The notes under the pieces were generated by a model. It saw only the letters and a program-made list of their open reading frames with translations. It had not been told where the DNA came from and searched no databases. 64,000 nt of DNA from Datnioides undecimradiatus (Eukaryota > Chordata > Actinopteri > Lobotiformes > Datnioididae), in assembly GCA_008933995.1 (NCBI GenBank), contig WARS01000007.1, positions 6,754,923-6,818,922 of the forward strand, written 5' to 3'. The translations under genes were made by a program, and so were the position numbers. Every line of letters starts with the position of its first letter. The stretch's first letter is position 1. Shown piece after piece: positions 7,601 to 62,974 of the stretch.

Positions 7601-10600
7601 CTATGAATGGACTAGAAAACCCCTAAACAACTGTAAACACTTGAAATTGGCACCAAAAATGTGAAGTTCGCATGACTTAAGTGCTCAGATGTTCTCCATG
7701 TGAGTTTCCTCCCACAGTCCAAAGACATCCAAGTCTGCTTAACGATAAAGTTAAGTGAAGGGAGATGTGTCCATGTCGGGAGGGGGGTTTTAGGATACTG
7801 AACTCATCCTCTGTCCAAACACTCATCAGCGTTTCCTCTGTAATTTTATGTCTCACTGGTGCTTGGAGGGTAATTGAGGCTGTGGTTAGAGCAGGTTATA
7901 GGGATTTCTATGCGTATTTTGTAAAAACAAACACATGGTTTCTAAGCATTACAGGCTACACATCTTTGTATCTGTGATGAAAAGGGAATGGGGATGGAGA
8001 GGGCCATGGGGCTGGAATATCTACTTGTGTGTTCTGTGGTGTGTGTGATGTGTGCGCGTGCGCTTCAAGGATGAGCACGCGTTTCCTTTCAGACTGAATT
8101 CAAATGAACTGGCCGATACACATGTGGCTTATTAGCCAGCAACAGTTGTTTTAAATATCATCTGGCTATTCAATAACCATCTGCTCATCTCTTGTATGGA
8201 TGATAACATACTGATGCAATATAAAATAACACTGAAAAAGCTCTATAGACAGATTTCAAAATCAGATAGGGGCCATTTAGACACTTAAAGATCAACGTTA
8301 AGGTCTGTGGAGAGTCTGACCTTAAGTTAGTTTAATAAAGCTTAATAAATTCAGCTTCTGGGTATCCTGTAAAAGAAAGAAATGAGGACCGTGTCGACAA
8401 AATTATATTTTTTATTTAAGTTTCCAAATTATCCACGAGCCACATGCCACTTCTTCCTCATTCAATCACAAAAACCTAAATATTGCGGCTGGCTGGAGGG
8501 AGATGCCCTGGTCTAAGCTTGATTGCGCAGCTGATTGGCACATCATTTGTAAACACGATGTAGCAGACAAGCATATTTAAAGGATTCAGTGTGGACCGAG
8601 CATCTGATGTGATGCAAGTGCAATATATGTGATGGTCTAAAGAGCCGGGTTGCTTTTATCTGTCTTGACGTCTCTTTTTATGATTACTGGGAAAATAAAA
8701 TGACGAAAAAAAGACCAGTCGCAGAGTCACTTACTTCAAAAGGAGTCTCAAAGGCCTCGATGATGCCGCCCACCATGAGAAGCCCGTCGGTGCTGATTCC
8801 CATGCCGTGTTGCACCCAGTCCACGCTCTCCAGCAGGGAGCAGTCCACATACAGTGCCAGACGCTTAGCAGAGACACTGACAGCCACATGGTGCCACTTT
8901 CCATCAGACAGACCGCTGACTGGGAACCTGACAGAGACACAGGTGGGTCATTTTGTTATCACCTGTCTTTGGTTTTGTGTACCTTTAGCAGGACGTCTGC
9001 ATGACATGATGATTGATTGAGGATTGAGACGTCACTCTAATGTCTCTGGGACCTCTGATGTCTGAATGCAGATGGGAGTTTAGAATTTAATTAATTAATT
9101 TAATATTATCAAAGAATAAATATGTTGTGATAATTGTGTTTATTAGCACTTATCAGCACACAGCTACACAACCAACAGCAACTATTCAATTCCTAAAAGT
9201 TTAGGTGTGTTATAATTGTGTTGGCAAATGTAGCCTTGAGCCACTAGCAGAATTATCAGTGTTTTGGTGACTGAATGCCAATTTAGGGATCCATCATATG
9301 ATTGAGGGCCACATAGGAAAACTCATGAACTTGATGTGGGGTTGTCATTGGTCTTATTATGACTTTGTCACTTTTCCATGTTGCCTAAACACTGAAGTGC
9401 ACAGTCATCCACCAGAAATCACTGACTCACTTGTTAGGCGGGCACAGTTAGACACGGAAGCAAAGTAGCATGTTAAATGTAGGATACTGATGCAATGGAA
9501 AGTTAGGGAAATGGCTCATTGAAATATGATGCATGACCTTTAAGTCACATTTGGGGCCATAACAACATTTTGCTAGAGGCCACCTTTGGCCAGCAGGCTA
9601 CACTTTAAGAAACTGCACTAACCTCTGGCAAAGATTAGGAGCGGAATAGAAGTCTGACTATTTCATTTGTTTCATACTTGTATTTATCAGCTACAGCAAA
9701 CCTCAGCAGCGGTCTGTTGTACCTTTTTAGTTTTAGATATGTGAGACTTCATGCACTTCTCTTAACTTTCACATGTGTGCAGTAAAACTTCCTAACATCT
9801 GTTAACAGACTTGGATGTGTAAAATCAGTGGGGTTCACCTTTATTATACAAATTATTAAACTGTAGAGGTCAAACTGGGCTCTAGACCCTACTGAACCAA
9901 CATGCTTGATAACATGTTGCCTTAAAGCAAAAACAAAAGTAAGCAAAAGGTAAAAAAGTAAAAAAAAAAAAAAAAAAAAACTCAACCATGAGGGAACAGT
10001 AGGAGAAAAGTACAGTATCTGTGTGTGTCTATCTTTTGGCCCAGTTCTGTCTGCCAGTTGCCTTGCAGTGATGAATTGCTTCGAGCTCTGTGGCAAAACC
10101 TGCTAAGAGACGCCTAATAAATCATGTCACCAAAGAGAGAGCCAAACACAATTTACAGACAGACAAATACGCACACACACTGCAAACATGTACACAGAGC
10201 CGTCCTTTGGCTTACACACCCATTTGCATGCACTTCAGCCAAGAAGCAGGATTTGGCATCAGTGGCCCTCAATTACCTGAGATGGATGTTGTAATAACCC
10301 TCTGACATCTGGATTTTTTTTGGAGAATGGTAATAAATAAAAGAAAAAGCATGTGCTTAGTCCTTTAACCAGGGGGGTTTGAACAATTTTAGCTGACTGA
10401 TCATGAATAAAAGCTTCTTAAATCTGCCAAAGAGTTTTCACAACACTCAATAGATAAATAACTCAATTTTCATTAATATGGTACTGGAAAGGAAGAGAGG
10501 AAAAACAAAAAATCTGTGTGTGGCCTCACTCATAGTGTCGTTGCTGTGTTCCTATGAAGATGACGGCGTAAGCACTTATCCGTAGCTGCAGCATAACGTG

Positions 10601-43519: not shown

Positions 43520-44089
43520 TTAGCACCAGTCCTCTTCCTCCCTCTCCCTGAGACTTCCTGTTCCTCGGCTCCCAGTCCCAGATGCGGAGTTGACACCGAG
43601 GGTGAAGTGGTACCCATTGGGCACCGCTCCCGCACGGCCCTGTGTGCTGGGCGCTATAACGGGTGCAGCGGCTATGCCGTGTGAAGCTGAGGCAGTGGTA
43701 GAGGCAGTGGTTCTGGCAGAGCGTCCCCCTCCGTGGCTGCTCACAGTATCCTGGAAGTCCTCTGTCTCTTCAAGCAGGGCCTGTTGAGAAGCAACCTGCT
43801 GCTGCCGGTTTAAATTAGGGTCCGAACCGATGCGGGTGACTGGCATCGGGGATTCATCTTGGCCCCCGATTAAGCGGTCATGCTCTGAAAGGCCACGGCT
43901 GAAGCGAGTCTGGTGTCCCGTTGTAACGGTGCTGGCACCGGACGGGAGAGGCGAGGAGTTGGCAGTCTTGTAGGCCACAGCAGGACGAGGGGTGAGGGGC
44001 GTCTGTGGTAGCTGCCTGCGACCGCGGCCTGGAGTGCTCGAACCAGAGGGGAGCGTCCCAGGGCCAGCTTTGACCACACCGATACCATG
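43520..44089 (-). CDS. cacna1b: cacna1b last coding exon with C-terminal PDZ ligand
   Basis: The exon opens after TTTCTATAG with [16 protein letters not shown] and ends in TAA at 43522-43520, giving 189 residues. [19 protein letters not shown] is nearly identical to mammals and contains the ligand for RIM-BP SH3 domains. Also conserved are [22 protein letters not shown]-like [18 protein letters not shown] and the final EEEDWC. The WC end corresponds to the DHWC PDZ ligand reported to bind Mint1 and RIM. These motifs link the channel to active-zone scaffolds. The exon is GC richer than its surroundings. Confidence 0.96.
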   Translation of the reverse strand, partial: HGIGVVKAGPGTLPSGSSTPGRGRRQLPQTPLTPRPAVAYKTANSSPLPSGASTVTTGHQTRFSRGLSEHDRLIGGQDESPMPVTRIGSDPNLNRQQQVASQQALLEETEDFQDTVSSHGGGRSARTTASTTASASHGIAAAPVIAPSTQGRAGAVPNGYHFTLGVNSASGTGSRGTGSLREREEEDWC

Positions 44090-53000: not shown

Positions 53001-56000
53001 TCTATTAGTCATTTTCAGGCAACAACATCAAACATTTAATGATTCCAAGCTGTCAAAGGTAAAAAGTTATTTTTAGTTTTCCTTGGTGTAGTAAATTGCA
53101 GATCTTCTGGTTTAGACTGCTGGTTGGACTCTACAGGAAATAGTTTGGGCCTTTTTCACCATTATCTGATGTTGTTTACACCAATTTAAACAATTAATTG
53201 ATGACTTATGGAAATAATTGATAATGAAAGTAAGCGTGAGTTGCAGTCCTAGTGATTTCGTAAGTTCAGTTTTATTCTGCTTTCCAGACAGATACTGGTA
53301 TCTATTCATTGCTGTACAGTATGCAAGTCAATTAGAAGACTGACACTGTATCTATACAGGAGGTATGGCATGAGCAGAACGATAGTGGTGCAGCAGCAGC
53401 AGCTTTAAGTGTATGTCTGTGTCTACACAGTTTGCATTCAGTCACAGTGCTGATTGCAGCTCATCTGTGTTTTGGCAGTGCACAACAAACCTTTTAACAA
53501 CATGTTAGAACCTTAAAAAAATGGGATTGCATTTTTTTAAATATGAAAATCAATAATTAAATGTGTACAATTTGTGTCATTCTTTAATTAAAATTTTATG
53601 GAGCATGTAGTCTTCTACTTAAAGTAACAACAAGAAAAGTCCAACTACAGTAGTATAAGCCAGAGAAGACAGTCACTCACATTGTGTCCCTGTTACCCGA
53701 GGTGGCAGTGGCAGTGGTGATGGTGGTAGTGGCAGTGGTGGTGGTTGTACGCAACGTCTCTGGCCTCACCTCAGCCTCAAGCTGCGGTGGGAGAGGCTGT
53801 TTGGGACTGGAGAACGGTGGCTCTACCTCCAGTATGTGTGTGAGGGGCAGCACAGGGCGGAACAATGCCCCCAGTTTACTCTGCAGGCACATGTCATAAA
53901 TGGAGTCATCACAGACAATTTGACCTCAGCAGCAGCAAAAAGAAAACTATACACACTGAAAGAGCACCATATCAATTTGTATCAAACTTTAAAATCCCCA
54001 TGAAAAATGGATGAAAAAGACTTAAAGATTTCAGGAACTCAGAAGACAATCGGAGCATTATAAAGCTGGAGTTTGGCATTGTGAGTAAATATTGAACTAA
54101 TGATCCTCAAAACAACATTACATTTCTTTCAGTTAAACCTTTTTCAGTGCAGGTCTGAGGACAAGACTACAAAGAATAACCACAAAACTTTTAAATTAGA
54201 CACCTGCTACACAAGGGAAAATCATTTTACATATAAATGATTCCTTGTTTGATTTTAAATCCAAATGAAAACATTTTATATGGAAATTTGACCAACATCG
54301 CGGTTTACCTGAGGCGCCCCTGCAGACTGCTGCTGCTGGAGTCTTTTGGCACGATTCTGCTTATAGTAGTCAAAGATCATTAGGGCTGCATAGACTTTCC
54401 CCACCGTCAGCTCATTGTCTAAGAGGAGGAGAGAGCAGGGTGAGAGATATTGTTTCCATGTGGGCAGTAGATGGCGCCAGATGAGAAACAAAGTACAACT
54501 CCTACTGTCATGTTTACTAGAAAACAGCACTCAAAAGGCCACACTGTAAACACGTAATCTGCACCTAATCAAGTAATCTGTGCATTGTTTGTTACTGGCT
54601 CATCAAAGTGTGTCTTTTTTCTTGAATGTTTCTATACTAGTATGTCTTGAAAGAAAACAAAGCACCACATATTACCACTCTAACATCATGAAAACTGAGA
54701 CTTCTCTGTGGGGATTTTTTCAGTTTTCATGATGCTTTCAGGGCTCTACAACAGACAAAAGAAAAGCCTCTATTTTACAAATCAGGAGAATTTCAAGTCA
54801 TTTTCAGTACAAAACAAATAGTGTTAAAAAAAATGCTAAATGAATATTGATGAATATCTTAAAAGAAGAAGAAAAATCATTGAACTATCAAATGATCAAA
54901 TGGTTAAAGCATGTTAATCTGGAGGGGAAACAGGGTTTAATCATTTCAACAAATAACAGATTTTTCCTTTTAATATTTTGTTTGACTGCTCGGACTCAGC
55001 TGGGTTTCAGCAGAACAAACAGAACCGCGGCTCACATTTATGCGGCGTCACCAGCAGGTTGACAGTCTTCTGTGACAGGTTGGGCCAGACTCGGTTTATC
55101 TCCCTCTTCAGGTCAGCGTCATTCAAACGCTGTGCTAGGACCCCTGCGGACACGCCCACAAACATGTCACATCAAATCTCCACCAGAGCATTCAACCCCA
55201 TTCACATTAACAACAGAGTCGTCAGTCCAGCCGCAAGGGATTTGGGATTTTGTGGTTTCAGTCTCTCACCAGATGCCAGTTTGATCTCCAGGGCCGTGCG
55301 AATCAGCGCCATGAGCGTGGAGGTGAAGTGCACCGTGTTGTCCTCCGCAATGGGCATGTTCATCTTCACCAATCGCTGAGAGGAACGGAAGCAAAGAGGA
55401 GGAGCCATGACCCAGGAACAAATGATCAACAGCTCAGGGAAAAGAGGCCAGATTAAAGGATATGACTACAATTCAAATTGAAGGGCAGTTGTTTTAACAT
55501 CAGGATTCTACGACAAGGTATAGATACATGATTTACAACAACATGAAACTGAGGAAAAAAAACAAAATCCTCACATTTGAGAAGCTGGGTGAAGCAAGCT
55601 TTGGGCATTTTTGCTTGTTAAACGACCATTTCTTTCACACTTTTACTTGATTAGTCAATAAATCATTTCAGTTCATGTGAAGGCCTCAGCCTGTGTGTCC
55701 ACTGTACACACCTTTTTATAAGCTAACAGCACTAAAAAAGATGAGTGCAGGGAGCTCTGTGCCGTTTATGGCTGCTGCTGTTGCTATGAGACTCTTGCAA
55801 ATCGACAGAAATCGCAGCACTCGTGTGTTAAAAGCTAAAAAATGATTAAGTTGTGATCCTGAGCACCGAGCTCGGTGAACATGCTAAGCTCTACATGCTG
55901 CTGGAAACATGCAGCAAGCACATCTCAATTCTGAAAAGAATGAGTTAGAAGCCAGAGGACAAAAGAGAAGTTGCTGACATCAGTATCCTCTTCTAAAAAA

Positions 56001-59000
56001 AAATCAAACATTTGCAGGTTTTAGCTTCTCTAATGTGAGGATTTGCTGCTCAAATGTGTTTTATATCAGTCTAGACTAAATATCTTTAGGTTTTGGACCG
56101 TTGGGTGTACAAGATAAGGGAATTAAAGAGGCCACCTTCAGCTCTGTTTTCACCTTTTCTTACATGTTGGATGAATGAATTAGTTTATTAAACATTTAAA
56201 TAAGTCTAAAATAAGTCTATACCATTAGCAATACATCGTAGTATACCAATTAGTACTAAAATCTAGCAATTATTATGAACAATTTCTTGGTGAGTAGAAA
56301 TTGATCAGCATAAATCCACACCATGCAGGGTTTCTGCATCAATGCTGCAGTGAAAGGATTCATACACACATGCATGTTTGAATGAGTACACCACAATCAC
56401 AGTAAGGCTGAAGGGATGGTAGAGGCAGGTACTGGATAAAGAATTTGTAAGTAAAAGAAAAATTACATAACTGAAAGACAAAATCAAAAAAACAAACAAA
56501 AAAACCCCCCACATAAAGGAACATTTTTGAAAAAGAAAAACTGTAGTTGACGGCTCCCATTTTTTTCAGGCCAAGATAATGGAAAACAAGAGAAAGTATA
56601 TTCACTCCGGGAGCGTGGCGATACAGATGGAGAGATGTGGAGATGAGAGACAAGGAACAGGAGGAGGGGGAGTAAATGCCTCAACTGGAGAGCATCTATG
56701 CATGAAAAGTCTTTTTTCCCAGAAATTTAGAGAAGAATGGCTGCTGCAGACATGAGCATAAGACAGATAAAGAAACACATAATCAAAAAGCACATATGCA
56801 GAGGACACATGCCTGCAGACAAACGCTTAACATGCACGCATACACAGACACACACAGGAACGTGAGAGGGCGGAGAGGATGCAAATCCCTGGAGAGGGTG
56901 AAAGAAAGATCATTCAGGAGAGAGAGTGAAGTGCTGCCTGAAGACGTAACTTAAAACTGGAAACAAGAGGGTAACGGGGACAATCTTGACTGTCAGGGGA
57001 AGATGTGTTCATTAGGAAGGGAGGTTAACAAGGCGCACGATCAACTGCAAAGTTGTGGGAGGGAAAAAATAGAAATAGAGGTGTGTATGGTGGGTGGACT
57101 AGCCTCGCTCTCAAGTGCACTGCTGCTCTCTGTGCGTCTTTGTTCATGTCTTTCTCTGTTGATTCACAAAAACACGAGTTATATTTGGAGATGCGACCAC
57201 GTCAGACCCAGACATTTTTAACTGGGGCAAGGGCAGGACCGCTTTAAATGTGATTCATCTCGACAGCTGTGCATGCACTGGAACCACTCACATTAAGTGT
57301 GCATGCTAAGAGGTGAGCAGCTGGCACGGGGACTACCTGAGGATTGTTGAGCTGTTTACTTGCCTCTCACTTCAACACAAGACAAGTCTCACGGATAATC
57401 ATGGGGTACCATGCCAGGTTCTCCTTCATTCAAGTCGGTGAAGGAGGGCATGACGAAAGTGTTCTGAAATGCTCCATGTGTTGACAAACCCTTCAAAAAT
57501 CCCTGATTAGCATCTAAATTCAGATAGATCCTGAACTATGTCACTTTGGCCAAATGTTAAGCTATAACTCAGTTTGGCAGCTGTAATGCTTTTATTGGCC
57601 AATAGGAGGCAGACAAAACTTGATTTTTCACACCCAGAAGACACAAGCTAACTTTGATTTGGAGTACAGTTTCAGATAAACATTATAAATCTGTCTAATA
57701 ATAACTCTCCTTTTATCTCTACTTTTGGTCTCCTCCAGGCTCATTTGCAAAGTCAGCATCTCATATGATACTGCATGATTCTCAAACATGGGGTTCCCAA
57801 AGCAAAACTTAACATCATAATATGAAGTGTTGGCATGCTAAAATGTAAACTAGCACTAAATCTATTCCATCTGCGCTAATGTGACTAGCAGTTCTAAGCT
57901 GATGGCATTAGCTGTTATATTTGGGCATAAATCACAGTAGTGAAAGTCAAATCCCTACCTTACAAAGGTGCTAAGGACATTTAAGGGATTACCAAACTTA
58001 CTGAAGTTCATCTGGAGGGAATATGAACGTCTGAATTTTATTTCATTGCAATCTATAAATTACTTTTTGACACTTCACTCTAAACTAAATATGTCACTCT
58101 GATGACGGCATTAGATGAAAAGTCAGGAGATCAGTCAGTAGCACAGATCCTCTGAGGATCATGAATGTCTTTACAAAAATTTCATGGGCATCTATCCAGA
58201 CATTGCCATCCCTAAAGCTCTGCCTGTAGCATTGCAAGAAATCAAAACCTTACGTTTTACAAGTTACCCGGCAGGTTGCATCTTCAGAAGGTATTTTCTT
58301 GATCTCTACAGGCTGCCCAGAATAATAAAATAATCACCCAGGGTCCTTGCTGGGTGCTTGTAAAGTGCACTGCATGAGCTTACGGCAGGCCAGAGCAGAG
58401 TCTTTGGAAACACTGGTTTGGCCGTGTACTGACTGTAGACATTTGTGAGATCACCAAAAAAACATTTGAAGGTGCAACCTGGTGCTAGACAACAGGTACA
58501 AGAATAAAGATATTTGCCTCTTGGGTTTGCACTGAGAGTTCACTCCTGAAGTCATAACCGAAGCAAGAATACCCAACACTTTAGCTGCTGTTCCACTTTC
58601 CTCTCCAACTAAGTTCGTAAGTTTGCCTGTTGTTCGGTGTTCTGTAGTACATTGGGTTTGTCACACTTTATTTACTGCAGACACCTGCTCGTTGCAGCTG
58701 GAGACAAAAATAAACATAAAACCAGAGTGCTAAAGCTTCAGCAAAACCAAAACTATGAGCTAAAAGATACTAAAAAGCTCATACAGTGTCAGCAGAAATA
58801 TAATGTCCGAATTAATGAAGAAATTGGGATTTCCATATTTACTTATATTTAACCAGCAGCTGGTGCTGTCATTTTCAACCTCTCCCTAAGATGATTTTCT
58901 GTCTAGATTTTCTGTCTATTCTAGTTTTGCTCATCTCTGCGTTCTATTTTTATTTATCTGTGTTACATGGCCCTCCAGCAGACGATCAGAGTGTACAACA

Positions 59001-62000
59001 AACCCTCACAGAGCAGGACGAGGCCACAGAGCTTCACAGATGAACAGAAAGAACAACAGCACAGCAGGCCAGAAAGATACGGGCTGCGACACACTGAGAG
59101 AAGCCTGAAGATGTTTGACGGGTGGAAGCAGGAAACCAGCGGTGACTGCGAGAGAGAGGAGGGGCAGAGGAGGAAGGAGTAATTCTACCTTATAGGCGAC
59201 TCGGGGGGGACATTTCTTTCCCAAACCTAGCGGAGGCGACATGTCGCGAAGCATCTCGTACATATCGCGGTAAGCCATGCGGCCGCTTCCCGTGGGGAAA
59301 GATGATAGGAGGCCATGGAAGGAAGAATGAAGATTTTCCAGGTGAGGAGGTGTTGGGATTAAAAAGGGGTAGGGGTGGAGTTACATCACAGAAAGAGGCA
59401 AAATCCAAAAGAGAGAATGGGAGGGAGGGGGGAAAAGAGAGGAAAACACAGAAATCCTTGTTAATAAGATTTCCAGGATATAATGATCTGGAATACCATC
59501 CTTGAATTTCAGGATCCCAGAAGAGGAAAGGGGGAGGATGGTCCGAAGGATTCCCTGTGCAGAGATGCTGGATGGAGGGATCCTGGCGGAATATATGTAC
59601 TTGGGAATGCAAGTTAAAGGCTCACTCCCCTTACAATCTTTCCTTTGAGTGTCAAACAGTCACCACCTCCAGGCTTGAAAGATGGCCCCAGTCTCGCAGT
59701 GTAAATACTTCCCAAACTACTCCCCCAAAATAATCCTCATCGGACCCCTAAAAATGCTAATTCATCTTTTTCAAAATAGGTTTTGCAGTTCAGATCCGTT
59801 TTCAAACGTAACAGAGGAGAAGCGGACCATGCTGCAGGAGTGGTTTGAGAGTTTACTCGTTTTTGCAATGACTCTCCAGAATCCAAGAGTCCACGAGAAA
59901 GACAATTTTCCTTCTCGAAGTCACAGCTACAAACTTTTCAGAGCCACCTTTCAAGAGGGGGGTTTATTATTTCAGAGTCAAAAAAGAGATTTTCAGTGGA
60001 GTACTCCTTTAAGATGCCCTCTGTTTCAGCATGCTAAGAGGCATTAGCAGTAACCAAAGTGGAAACAAAGCACACAATGCTCTCTCTTCACTGCCCACTC
60101 TTTCTCTCCTGTGTTCAGAAGCAGGAAAATATCTTAGACATCGCATCTGATGCCTTTTTCGTTTGAGCCTGACTTGCTGCATTGTTTCCCACACTCGCCA
60201 TGGTTACCTGCCAGCTGGTTAGTGGAGGCAGTCGATGCATGTTTATATGCATGTGTGGTCAGGGTCATTCGCTGCCACCGCAGGGAATGAAGGCAGACAT
60301 TTCACAGTCCGAAAACCATCACAGTCCCTTTGAAAACAAAAGGACTGTGTGGGAGTGCAAACCTTATAAGCCACCCTGTTGGGGCACTTCTTCCCCAGGC
60401 CCAGGGGAGGCGAGATAAAACGCAACAATTTGTACATATCCTGATAGCATATCCTCCCGCTGAAAAAGATAAGATATGTTCAAGGGATTAGGTCACAGGT
60501 TATATCATCACATCTTTAGTCTAATATCGGTTAGAGCTTATTAACATTTAGTAAATACTCAACAAGTAGCAACATAAAGAGCACAATATAGGGCCAAGGT
60601 CAGGCTATTTTTTCATGTTTTACCTTTACGACTAAGTCTGCAAGTTTGTTGGTGTTTGTTTTGAATAGCACAGGTTTATGTTTTTCATAGTTGTTTTTAT
60701 TAACTGATAAATATCTGGACATAATTCCCAGCCTTTCAGTGTTTCCTCTGCATCTTACCCTCAAATTACATGTGTAAAGATGACATTTGATTTGAAAAAT
60801 AATGGATTTGGATTTGATTAGAGCTTTTGTAACTTTATTCCACAATTCCCCAAAGTAGAATGGAAAACAGCCCCCTCCAAACTGTCAGGAATAAAGTTCT
60901 GGTGGAAAAGGTAAATCCTGTTTCATCAAGCATATTAAGACAAGCAATAATGAATATTGAATATTAAATAACTAGCATGTGTTTTTTAATTGTAGAATGT
61001 ACAAATCCCTAAAAATTTGCAATAAAGACAAGGAAATGGCAAACGCCTTGTATTTAACTAAAGTACTGATTATCTTCATGCAGCCACTTTCAAATTAAAT
61101 GAAATCAATCTTCTCCTTTTTGAAAAAGAAAATACATGAAAACAAATAAAATCTAAAAACGATGAGTCTTAAATATACTACTTGCTGTAACCTGACATAA
61201 AAATGAGTTAAAGAGGTTAAAATATGCTGAATGTTACTGTAGGCACTTCTCTGAGAGCAGCTAATTTATATTCTAAGGAATAAATAATAATTCCTCCCCC
61301 GTAATGTCTGTCAGGAGATGGCAATTTCATATTTCACATCTCACACCTCTCCTGGAGTCCTGACTCACTGACAAGGCTCCTGTGAAGCCTTCTTTAAACC
61401 TTAATGAGCCTTACATAATCGCAGACAGATTACGCCTCACACTGTCTCACTCTGAACTCGTATTGTGCTGTAGTCAAGTTAAACAGTGCCAGAGCTAGGG
61501 GCAGAGAGGGGGCTGACATAAACCTGCATTGCCCCAATGGATCAATAGAAATAGTTTCTCTTCACACCACAGTGACAGACTGAGGAGCTTTGGAGCACAC
61601 CAGCTTACGGTGGCAAAGAGGGCTGCGCGGACGCCAAGCGGAACGCTGGATTTACATGCATCAGTCCGGCCGACAGGGGGGCTCGTCAGCAGCCTGTGCC
61701 AACTCCGGGTTCAGGCTTAATGTCATTCACCCGCCGCTGCTAAGATGGGATTTTTCCAGTCCCACGTCACAGAGTCATCCTGCTGGAACTCAGAAGCCAT
61801 TCTTACAGTTTGCTGTTTCCGAGTCTATCTCTGAATACAACCTCTCTGTCTCTTTTACGCTGACAGTGGGGGCTACCATGCACCTAAGCTGACAGAGATC
61901 AAGTTAAAGATCAGAGGAAGCACTTACCAGGCAGCAGGGTCATACTCTGCCCACACACGGATGAATTCATCGAGGTGATGAGGCCCCAGGATGGAGGCGT

Positions 62001-62974
62001 CCCTGGTCAAATACTCAAAATTGTCCATGATGACAGCGACAAATAGGTTCAGCATCTGGTGAATGAAAGCACAAGGGTTGAAAATAAGTGAATAATGAAT
62101 AAAAATATATGTTTTTTAAGACTAAAAAAATTAAATATTAAACTTTAATCCGAAAAAGCTGACTGAAGTGTTTACCTAATACTTCAGATTATTCAGGTTA
62201 CATATTGTTGGTATCGCGACTTAATGGGCCATCTTGGTGATTTTGCATATTCTTAGCCCCGAAACTACAAACCAGATATTAAATGCTACTGCTGACCATT
62301 TAGCAAACCCTGAACCTTTAGGGAACCTTTTCAACATGTGGGATGCATCCTGTCAGATTTCAGCCTGTTTAGAACTGCACTGACACACACTGCATGTGAG
62401 AGCCTCCTCGTCCTCCCTGCTTCAGTTTGCAACATGTAGCGCTGCTGAACGTCATGTATTCAGTTTAAGTTTGACAAAGTTCAAACAAGTAGTAAAGGGG
62501 CGATTGAATGCAAAACCTCCAAACTTCTGTATAATTTCAGTCTGTCAGAACACACAGAATGAGAGCAGATGCGACGGCCTTCTGTTTTCCTTCGCACTGA
62601 CCAGGAAGGAGCAGAGGAAGATGAAGGAGACAAAGTAGAAGTAGGCAAAGTCACTTCCACACTCCTTCCCCACAGTTCCTGAGAGTTTATCGCACGGCCG
62701 GTTACTGAGACACGCCAACATGATCTCATGCCACGCCTCTCCTGTCGCACTCCTGAAGCACACACAAATCACAGTAAAGGTACACACAAGAATAAAAAGT
62801 CAATGGAAACACTGCTCATCGATACAAGGGGCAGGGCTTCGTGTTATCAGGAGGTACTTTCAGAATATTGGAGCAGGACTACCTGAAGAGAAGAGTCAAG
62901 GCCTGGAAGAAGGTCTGGAAGTTGTTGTGGTGATTTATTGCGGTGTCCTCAATCAGCTCGATGTTTCCAAACAC
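43520..62974 (-). CDS. cacna1b: cacna1b (Cav2.2 N-type calcium channel alpha-1B), 3' part, spliced
   Basis: This is the pore-forming subunit of the presynaptic N-type voltage-gated calcium channel, a plasma-membrane protein that admits Ca2+ to trigger transmitter release. Thirteen coding segments join in frame (2283 nt, 760 residues plus stop). In order they give the domain IV pore loop with the selectivity-filter Glu (TGEAW, fragment residue 36), IVS6 (about 66-94), the EF-hand region (about 106-156), pre-IQ and IQ (233-249, [17 protein letters not shown]), a basic His-rich tail with [14 protein letters not shown], the SH3-ligand motif [12 protein letters not shown] (596-607) and a C-terminal DWC. 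The [12 protein letters not shown] motif, the His-rich block and the WC end fit Cav2.2 best, rather than Cav2.1 or Cav2.3. The upstream exons lie beyond the right edge. Teleosts can have two cacna1b copies; the sequence alone does not say which this is. Confidence 0.96.
45046..45111 (-). CDS. cacna1b: possible in-frame 3' extension of the preceding cacna1b exon
   Basis: Downstream of the CAG|GTGAGC donor the frame stays open for exactly 22 codons ([20 protein letters not shown] then QS) and reaches a strong second donor, TCC|GTAAGT. Both donors are in phase 0, so either splices correctly to the last exon. The distal donor looks nearer consensus than the proximal one. Residues up to the proximal donor resemble known Cav2.2, whereas the extension does not. 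It is either a true alternative 5' splice site or chance. Confidence 0.35.
45112..45335 (-). CDS. cacna1b: cacna1b exon: Arg/Ser-rich tail segment
   Basis: This 224-nt exon encodes (G)[40 protein letters not shown] and [20 protein letters not shown], ending [19 protein letters not shown] is the counterpart of mammalian EKQRFYSCDRFGGRE. The acceptor is GTCCTCCAG and the proximal donor CAG|GTGAGC, ending in phase 0. A second donor 66 nt further on could lengthen it in frame (separate entry). Confidence 0.94.
45336..47701 (-). other. cacna1b intron, nothing recognised
   Basis: About 2.4 kb between the His-rich and the Arg/Ser-rich exons. AT rich, without repeats or exons I can name. Confidence 0.65.
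47702..47957 (-). CDS. cacna1b: cacna1b exon: His-rich, basic tail
   Basis: The 256-nt exon starts [20 protein letters not shown], matching PVTDASPMKRSISTLAQ of mammalian Cav2.2. It contains [20 protein letters not shown], matching the [20 protein letters not shown] block, here with seven consecutive His. The acceptor is CCCTCTCAG, and the donor ATTG|GTGAGA leaves one base of a Gly codon. The His run is coded mainly by CAC repeats. Confidence 0.94.
49726..49850. repeat. purine-rich tract (pyrimidine-rich in cacna1b sense)
   Basis: About 120 nt almost entirely A and G on the plus strand, including an (AG)n run near 49821-49832. In the transcript it is a CU-rich tract just downstream of the candidate 39-nt cassette, a likely binding ground for PTB-type splice regulators (inference). 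Confidence 0.6.
49854..49892 (-). CDS. candidate 39-nt in-frame cassette exon in cacna1b
   Basis: Between two phase-0 exon borders lies a 39-nt stretch flanked by a pyrimidine-rich acceptor ending TGTGTGCTGTCTGATAG and a GTATGT donor. It reads [13 protein letters not shown] with no stop, so its inclusion would keep the frame. It is GC rich compared with its surroundings. A TGC motif sits just before the acceptor, and a CT-rich tract of about 100 nt lies just downstream. This is a prediction from splice signals only; I know of no matching mammalian exon. Confidence 0.25.
51395..51480. repeat. fish repeat with TTAGC pentamer array
   Basis: GTTAGCTTAGCTTAGCTTAG then CTTAGCATGAAACCTGGCAG: about four and a half TTAGC units joined to a widespread fish repeat that normally reads CTTAGCATAAAGACTGG. 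A weaker copy lies at 2575-2640 (TTATTAGCTTAGCTTAGATA then AAGACAGGCATAG). Intron of cacna1b. Confidence 0.5.
52452..52562 (-). CDS. cacna1b: cacna1b exon: RAASLPRL segment
   Basis: Thirty-seven codons, [20 protein letters not shown] then [17 protein letters not shown]. The GLES-x-GRAASMPRLAAE stretch of mammalian Cav2.2 is clearly recognisable as [21 protein letters not shown] fits a basophilic kinase site, which is an inference. The acceptor is TATTTTAG and the donor TAT|GTAAGC, both phase 0. The next constitutive exon is 4.5 kb away, with a candidate in-frame cassette between them. Confidence 0.9.
52675..52804 (-). CDS. cacna1b: cacna1b exon: variable basic tail segment
   Basis: The 130-nt exon encodes [40 protein letters not shown] and RPQ. 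It corresponds to the poorly conserved region after the IQ domain (NGGAIQNQESGIKES... in mammals) and is rich in Ser, Gln and basic residues. Phase agrees on both sides: one base completes Ile, and CAG|GTACGC ends in phase 0. A 112-bp intron follows. Identity rests on position, phase and composition rather than strong residue matches. Confidence 0.84.
52928..53254. repeat. MITE-like dispersed repeat, near full length
   Basis: The block starts TAAGAGCTGCAACAACTGGT and ends AAATAATTGATAATGAAAGT then AAGCGTGAGTTGCAGTCCT. GAGCTGCAAC and GTTGCAGTCCT act as imperfect inverted ends. The interior phrases are those of the same teleost family as 19050-19335. It lies in the cacna1b intron between the RPQ exon and the Thr-rich exon. 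Confidence 0.5.
53681..53880 (-). CDS. cacna1b: cacna1b exon: proximal tail with Thr-rich tract
   Basis: This 200-nt exon starts [20 protein letters not shown], which lines up with the SLFHPLKATLE segment of mammalian Cav2.2. It continues with a Pro-rich stretch and then a run of threonines and alanines ([20 protein letters not shown]). The Thr run comes from an imperfect ACC/ACT/GCC trinucleotide array and looks like a lineage-specific insert. The acceptor is CTGCAG; the donor ACAAT|GTGAGT leaves two bases, completed to Ile by the next exon. Confidence 0.88.
54309..54418 (-). CDS. cacna1b: cacna1b exon: IQ domain
   Basis: The translation (Y)[20 protein letters not shown] then [16 protein letters not shown] contains the Cav2 IQ domain ([17 protein letters not shown]). 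The IQ domain binds calmodulin and mediates Ca2+-dependent feedback. A Gln-rich run follows the basic NRAKR. It is 110 nt and ends in phase 0 at CAG|GTAAAC. The acceptor CTCCTCTTAG is pyrimidine rich. Confidence 0.95.
55036..55143 (-). CDS. cacna1b: cacna1b exon: pre-IQ to IQ linker
   Basis: The 108-nt exon encodes [20 protein letters not shown] then [15 protein letters not shown], matching the DAELRKEI..VWANLPQKTLDLLVPPHK segment of mammalian Cav2.2. The intron before it is only 126 bp. The acceptor is CCGCAG and the donor AAAT|GTGAGC leaves one base. The first residues (VLAQRLN) differ from the mammalian form, while the core is conserved. Confidence 0.93.
55270..55375 (-). CDS. cacna1b: cacna1b exon: pre-IQ region
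   Basis: The exon encodes [20 protein letters not shown] then [15 protein letters not shown], near identical to the known Cav2 pre-IQ region just after the EF-hand. It is 106 nt, phase 0 at the start, with one base of a Gly codon left at the donor CTG|GTGAGA. The acceptor is CTCAG. If both upstream e37 copies were skipped, joining the 61928-62055 exon here would give Cys-Asp-Trp and then TGA, so one copy must be used. Confidence 0.95.
55545..55670. repeat. MITE-like repeat, 3' fragment
   Basis: CTCACATTTGAGAAGCTGGG, GGGCATTTTTGCTTGTTAAA and TTGATTAGTCAATAAATCAT are the right-hand part of the MITE-like family seen at 52928-53254 and 19050-19335. It lies in the cacna1b intron following e37b. 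Confidence 0.45.
58140..58230. repeat. dispersed fish repeat fragment (CTGAGGATCATGAATGTC)
   Basis: ATCCTCTGAGGATCATGAAT then TTTCATGGGCATCTATCCAG and CATTGCCATCCCTAAAGC is a diverged copy of a common fish repeat, also present at 34605-34660. Located in the cacna1b intron after e37b. Confidence 0.45.
59189..59285 (-). CDS. cacna1b: cacna1b mutually exclusive exon, e37b-like copy
   Basis: This is a second 97-nt version of the same exon with the same phases, encoding [20 protein letters not shown] then [15 protein letters not shown][10 protein letters not shown] matches mammalian e37b, the broadly expressed form, and its position downstream of the e37a-like copy matches mammalian order. The acceptor is poor (CCCCACGGGAAG with a broken pyrimidine tract), while the donor AAG|GTAGAA is better than that of e37a. 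The copies share [11 protein letters not shown] and RVAYK and diverge mainly in the first half. If both copies were used together, reading through this one would end in TAA at its 3' end. Confidence 0.92.
59600..60020. repeat. unclassified repeat-like block between e37a and e37b
   Basis: Roughly 400 bp in the 1.08-kb intron separating the alternative exons. It contains phrases seen in fish non-coding repeats: CTGCAGGAGTGGTTTGAGAG and a terminal CAGTGGAGTACTCCTTTAAG. It is open for 121 codons on the plus strand, but the translation resembles no protein I know. Repeat status is suspected only. Confidence 0.3.
60363..60459 (-). CDS. cacna1b: cacna1b mutually exclusive exon, e37a-like copy
   Basis: This 97-nt exon completes Cys and encodes [20 protein letters not shown] then [12 protein letters not shown]. 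It forms the second half of the EF-hand and the start of the pre-IQ segment. In mammalian Cacna1b the e37a exon, enriched in nociceptors, comes first and contains a DMYSLL-type sequence with a following I before SPPLGLG. This copy is also the first of the pair and has DMYKLLRFI, so I call it e37a-like. The acceptor is strong (TTTTTCAG) and the donor weak (AAG|GTTTGC). It is alternative to 59189-59285. Confidence 0.92.
60460..61927 (-). other. cacna1b intron upstream of e37a
   Basis: About 1.5 kb, AT rich. No exon or repeat recognised. Confidence 0.7.
61928..62055 (-). CDS. cacna1b: cacna1b exon: end of IVS6 and EF-hand region
   Basis: Translation [20 protein letters not shown] followed by [20 protein letters not shown] shows the cytoplasmic end of IVS6 and the first helix of the EF-hand-like domain. 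The exon is 128 nt, phase 0 at the start and phase 2 at the end, leaving TG of a Cys codon. The donor is CTG|GTAAGT. Both copies of the duplicated downstream exon begin with C, completing TGC. This is the upstream partner in the mutually exclusive splice choice. Confidence 0.95.
62602..62752 (-). CDS. cacna1b: cacna1b exon: domain IV selectivity filter and most of IVS6
   Basis: This 151-nt exon completes the Arg and encodes 50 residues beginning [11 protein letters not shown] and ending FLCSFL. The Glu in TGEAW is the domain IV member of the EEEE ring that selects Ca2+. [20 protein letters not shown] is the start of the IVS6 helix that lines the pore. The acceptor is CTTCAG and the donor is CTG|GTCAGT, an acceptable but non-consensus site. 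The loop between filter and S6 ([10 protein letters not shown]) is the variable stretch compared with mammals. Confidence 0.95.
62883..62974 (-). CDS. cacna1b: cacna1b exon: end of IVS5 and start of the domain IV pore loop
   Basis: The exon opens after CTCAG with [20 protein letters not shown] and ends ...TLLF plus AG before GTAGTC. It is 92 nt: 30 codons plus two bases of an Arg codon completed by the next exon. It encodes the extracellular turret and descending pore helix of domain IV. The [14 protein letters not shown] segment is typical of Cav2 channels. A 130-bp intron separates it from the next exon. The preceding exon (S4-S5 and S5 of domain IV) is not found before the right edge. Confidence 0.93.

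Follow-up and report, generated by a model that had tools for sequence, protein, structure and literature searches.

A pair of e37a- and e37b-type exons in a teleost cacna1b gene, placed by sequence comparison before the separation of the CaV2 paralogues

Two similar exons of equal length lie next to each other in a channel gene of the fish Datnioides undecimradiatus, which raises the questions of whether they correspond to the alternative exons 37a and 37b of mammals, how the use of exactly one of them could be secured, and how old the duplication is. In mammals, CaV2.1, CaV2.2 and CaV2.3 are described in excerpts of a review (PMC7235277) as carrying such a pair of 97-nt mutually exclusive exons. 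With a probability of about 0.9, we read the fish pair as the mutually exclusive exons e37a and e37b of teleost cacna1b (CaV2.2 alpha-1), in which the use of both copies or of neither would shift the frame and lead to an early stop. The pair thus read is a known system, and it is real, constrained and ancient. What is added here is its occurrence in each of the two cacna1b-like genes of a fish, a tyrosine in both exons, type-specific splice donors, and an acidic dileucine pattern that, among a exons, is found only in e37a of cacna1b and cacna1a.

Gene identity and structure of the exon pair

The stretch of DNA that was analysed (the window) comprises 64,000 bases, positions 6754923-6818922 of contig C464 in the 581-Mb genome. 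It contains the following parts of the gene.

61928..62055, minus strand: e36, the upstream constitutive exon (128 nt); 3' end ...GCTGCCTG, donor gtaagt, two codon bases left over
60363..60459, minus strand: e37a-like exon (97 nt, 32 aa); acceptor tttttcag, donor GTTTGC, acidic dileucine pattern DMYKLL
59189..59285, minus strand: e37b-like exon (97 nt, 32 aa); acceptor acgggaag, donor GTAGAA, phase 0 reading ends in TAA
55270..55375, minus strand: e38, the downstream constitutive exon (106 nt); start at 55375 is CGATTGGTGAAG
43520..44089, minus strand: open frame containing the end of the coding sequence, for the channel C-terminus (...PNGYHFTLG...EEEDWC-stop); exon start approximate

The two copies have equal phase, are each preceded by AG and followed by GT, and are identical at 64/97 nucleotides and 24/32 amino acids. 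Introns of 1,468 nt (e36 to e37a), 1,077 nt (e37a to e37b) and 3,813 nt (e37b to e38) separate the four exons. The coordinates, 97-nt lengths, equal phases, homology and spacing of about 1.08 kb that a first-pass annotation had given for the pair were reproduced on the minus strand. When e37a was slid without gaps along both strands of all 64,000 bases, at least 50 of 97 identities were reached only at e37a itself (97) and at e37b (64). Within the intron that separates the copies, 90 nt (window 59925-60014) have 77% identity to C467:5230845-5230937 and are possibly an old repeat. About 35 kb beyond the channel stop, the open frame at 8687-8947 (minus strand) matched laminin-G (PF02210, 9.8e-7) and probably represents an exon of the neighbouring gene; a Pfam search of four window frames gave no match in the other three, the channel C-terminus included.

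We assign the window gene to cacna1b (CaV2.2 alpha-1), in agreement with the first-pass annotation. This identity is best seen at the C-terminus, which is closest to CaV2.2 among the human CaV2 channels: the joined peptide of e38-e40 and the last exon scored 215 bits against CaV2.2, 137 against CaV2.1 and 117 against CaV2.3, and the tail aligns through the last residue of human CaV2.2. Over e36, e38 and e39 the window gene is identical to human 1B at 91/113 residues, to 1A at 84/113 and to 1E at 82/113, while e36-e38 taken by itself is a poor discriminator of CaV2 types (203.5 bits for CaV2.2, 198.8 for CaV2.3 and 196.8 for CaV2.1).

A protein search of the same genome, with extraction of the exons, recovered at least six CaV2 loci. 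The window gene (C464) and C28 are cacna1b-like, C22 and C481 cacna1a-like, and C312 and C476 cacna1e-like. The weakest of these assignments is that of C28, whose e38-e40 scored 145 bits to CaV2.1 against 139 to CaV2.2; its identity is 93/113 to 1B and 89/113 to 1A, and the tree places it with 1B (support 53/68). Five of the six loci carry the exon pair, each exon 97 nt long and e37a first, so that the claimed likeness to the mammalian order (PMC7235277, in excerpt) extends to every paired gene found here. The remaining locus, the cacna1e-like C476 (C476:1738330-1739239), carries the b-type exon only and has lost e37a; the intron before its e37b measures only 353 nt, and the e37b donor is GTAATG, where four other b exons have GTAGA. 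A remnant of e37a was sought in both introns of C476 with all 11 exons (22 comparisons), and no a exon did better than 33/200 shuffles; the best score was that of a b exon, C312b, in the first intron (2/200 shuffles, one of 22 comparisons). Within the stretch examined, the CaV1 loci, at least seven in number, have one homologous exon each, which is also 97 nt long. At an eighth CaV1 locus, C472, the exon sequence is identical to that of C471, and this locus was omitted from the trees. These two contigs are almost equally long and carry that sequence at nearly the same place, possibly as two haplotypes or as a duplicated contig.

Age of the duplication

A DNA tree was computed from the 11 CaV2 and 7 CaV1 exons of this fish genome (97 columns). 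The protein tree (32 columns) also included three human b exons, taken from PDB alignments, the mammalian side being of b type only. The six b exons lie on one side of a branch in the DNA tree (90/98, not starred), and in the protein tree the nine b exons, six from the fish and three human, form one group (99/95, starred). Forcing the two window copies to be sisters was rejected both with DNA (cost 16.3 log units, p-AU 0.004) and with protein (p-AU 0.042). Further constraint tests on DNA rejected the four cacna1b exons (p 0.016) and the four cacna1a exons (p 0.009) as groups. Neither tree unites the a exons in a single group, and their monophyly was not rejected with DNA (p-AU 0.153). Six alignment columns separate all 5 a exons from all 9 b exons.

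One feature of the pair would suit a recent tandem duplication or gene conversion within fish that produced it independently of mammals: e37a of fish cacna1b ends in VAYK, as b-type exons do, where the other a exons and CaV1 have VACK. Such an origin is barely credible in view of the rejected sister pairing, the rejected gene-wise groups and the six separating columns, and for human, too, clustering of 37a and 37b by type across CaV2.1, CaV2.2 and CaV2.3 is stated in the excerpted text of PMC7235277. The constraint tests reject it. They likewise reject, as far as the b-type side is concerned (human e37b from PDB chains), the phylogeny that the first-pass annotation had named as contrary to its proposal, in which the two fish copies group together and apart from the mammalian exons.

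Because fish e37b groups with human e37b and the window copies are rejected as sisters, we place the e37 duplication before the separation of CaV2.1, CaV2.2 and CaV2.3. The first-pass annotation had dated it before the split of fish and tetrapods; its ancient origin stands, but this date is too young. Since the type-wise clustering of the human exons was reported earlier, the idea that the pair arose before the CaV2 split has already been published (PMC7235277, in excerpt). In excerpts of PMC9741552, human CACNA1A, CACNA1B and CACNA1E are each credited with one tandem-exon event, and bony-fish orthologues are stated for over 90% of the human events of this kind. The exons 37a/37b of mammalian CACNA1A (EFa/EFb) and CACNA1E would descend from the same ancestral duplication, with clustering by type in this fish as in human, although they belong to other CaV2 paralogues and one fish cacna1e-like copy retains the b type only.

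Of 32 residues, the a exons share on average 20.5 with the CaV1 exons and the b exons 16.6, and the e37a form may for this reason be nearer to the ancestral state than e37b. Contrary to this, Drosophila Cacophony is reported to be nearer to 37b in the excerpt of PMC7235277.

Frame, splice donors and the choice of exon

In the window gene, e37a alone or e37b alone keeps the frame into e38 (RLVKMNMPI...). Joining both copies produces TAA at the last full codon of e37b, and joining e36 directly to e38 gives Cys-Asp-Trp-stop; both outcomes had been predicted at first pass, the latter with TGA as the stop. The same penalty is seen across the genome. In each of the five paired genes, using both exons leads to an early stop, which falls within e37b except in C28, where it lies in e38. 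Using neither does so in all six CaV2 loci, and in the four cacna1a- and cacna1e-like genes the e36-e38 junction itself reads TGA. With random synonymous codons, however, the window e37b still holds a phase 0 stop 92% of the time, and the six b exons do so in 80-94%. The frame penalty, though real, is therefore generic; it does not amount to a special design and leaves the choice between the exons undecided. The term frame-enforced exclusivity used at first pass is overstated to that extent, as such generic stops discard bad transcripts without selecting one copy. A conserved TAT codon at Tyr31 as a guard that supplies the TAA was ruled out, as TAT is present in 4/6 b exons and TAC in 2/6. Either/or use in this fish we infer from homology and frame.

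The donors differ by exon type. AAG|GTTTG occurs at all five a exons and AAG|GTAGA at four of the six b exons. A T at donor position +3 is found in 5/5 a exons and in 0/19 others (6 e36, 7 CaV1 and 6 b exons; Fisher p 2.4e-5, the counts not being independent). The GTTTG pattern of e37a was not met in the literature searched and may still have been reported. Scored with an approximate matrix, donors reach 73-75 for a exons, 70-84 for b exons and 81-92 for e36. While 37b is called the stronger exon in mammals (PMC7235277, in excerpt), the window donors show no such advantage (73 for e37a, 70 for e37b).

Perhaps e37a is a relic that is no longer spliced in, leaving e37b effectively constitutive in this fish. 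The loss of e37a from the cacna1e-like C476, the non-consensus donor of e37a and a description of a single e37 for zebrafish CaV2.2 (figure legend of PMC5818475) would fit this. It is nonetheless very unlikely, as e37a has intact splice sites and frame, its GTTTG donor is retained in 5/5 a exons, and the splice sites of the window e37b are no better by eye or by score, the acceptor being ...gggaag. Between the window gene and the other cacna1b-like gene, 20 codons of e37a have changed, 5 of them nonsynonymously (P 2e-6), and in e37b 17 codons have changed, 6 of them nonsynonymously (P 3e-4), where a nonsynonymous fraction of 0.76-0.77 is expected without selection. Both exons thus look constrained by purifying selection, e37a included.

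Steric exclusion is unlikely as the mechanism of exclusivity because the introns are long (1.1-3.8 kb in the window; 771 to 2,737 nt between a and b exons in the five paired genes), and spliceosome incompatibility is unlikely because the donors belong to the major (GT) class. Splicing-factor words within 300 nt on either side of the exons showed no pattern shared by type, and TGCATG occurred in 0/22 flanks. A search for RNA pairing between the introns (55300-62100) found six inverted repeats, one of them a palindrome, with a single weak pair (23 nt, 74%) flanking e37a.

In mouse Cacna1b, CTCF binds e37a and promotes its inclusion (PMC7124252, in excerpt), and the review excerpt states that it also binds e37a of Cacna1a (PMC7235277). 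The same choice in the fish, with CTCF on unmethylated e37a DNA favouring inclusion, appears unlikely. Neither e37a nor e37b of the window has a CTCF match above shuffles by an approximate matrix or consensus, both applied to fish sequence only: 131/300 shuffles matched the window e37a by matrix (37-146/300 across the five a exons) and 144/300 by consensus. In this the fish e37a may differ from that of mouse. CpG counts are 3 in e37a and 11 in e37b, each of 97 nt, the opposite of what a methylation-gated e37a might lead one to expect. Among 11 loci, the best CTCF-like match lies at the start of C312 e37b (~13863318; 11.3 of 26.1 bits, 1/300 shuffles by the approximate matrix and 3/300 by consensus).

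Exon choice in the fish would probably rest on competition, under regulation, between two exons whose donors both depart from the consensus (GTTTG in e37a, GTAGA in e37b), backed by the loss of misspliced RNA. Transcripts with both copies or with neither would be destroyed or would encode a truncated channel, and usable mRNAs would hold exactly one e37 copy.

Tyrosine, sorting signals and the function of the switch

The fish pair resembles e37a/e37b of mammalian Cacna1b in the gene itself, in its position in the EF-hand-like domain, in the 97 nt of each exon, in having e37a first and in the grouping of its e37b with human e37b. It differs at the F-helix. In mammalian CaV2.2, e37b replaces the F-helix tyrosine by phenylalanine, which removes Src-dependent inhibition (PMC5818475, in excerpt), and the human CaV2.2 PDB chain, which is of e37b type, has Phe at this position. 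Both window exons, and all 11 CaV2 exons of this fish genome, carry tyrosine instead of the mammalian pattern of Tyr in e37a and Phe in e37b. A figure legend in the excerpt of PMC5818475 gives one e37 to the CaV2.2 of zebrafish and of Xenopus, and two to that of chicken, both with Tyr. This fish resembles the chicken, a bird compared here by description only, rather than the single-exon description, and a fish pair is present despite that statement on zebrafish. This splicing switch, which has been studied in mammals for its role in pain and in the response to morphine, occurs in the two cacna1b-like genes of a fish alike and would predate the separation of the CaV2 genes. With Tyr in both exons, such a fish is a natural setting in which the effect of the switch can be tested free of the Tyr/Phe difference of mammals.

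The sequences [DE]xxxL[LI] and YxxPhi are sorting motif patterns, and adaptor motifs may matter, to judge by the title of a 2015 article by Macabuag and Dolphin. All four cacna1b- and cacna1a-like genes have the [DE]xxxL[LI] pattern in their a exon, and so do 6/7 CaV1 exons; it is absent from the cacna1e-like a exon and from all six b exons. Changing from one exon to the other would, in the fish protein, probably alter the surface of the F-helix together with an acidic dileucine-type trafficking signal (DMYKLL, in e37a only), and probably not the mammalian tyrosine/phenylalanine state, since both fish exons keep tyrosine. Taken jointly, these observations allow a tentative reading that we consider possible but doubtful: the ancestral purpose of the e37 switch would not have been opioid or Src sensitivity; in cacna1a- and cacna1b-like genes it would toggle an acidic dileucine-type sorting signal, under type-specific weak donors kept since before the CaV2 split, and the mammalian role in pain would have come later, through one Tyr-to-Phe change in e37b of CACNA1B. 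Each of the 11 CaV2 exons, of either type, contains YxxPhi patterns.
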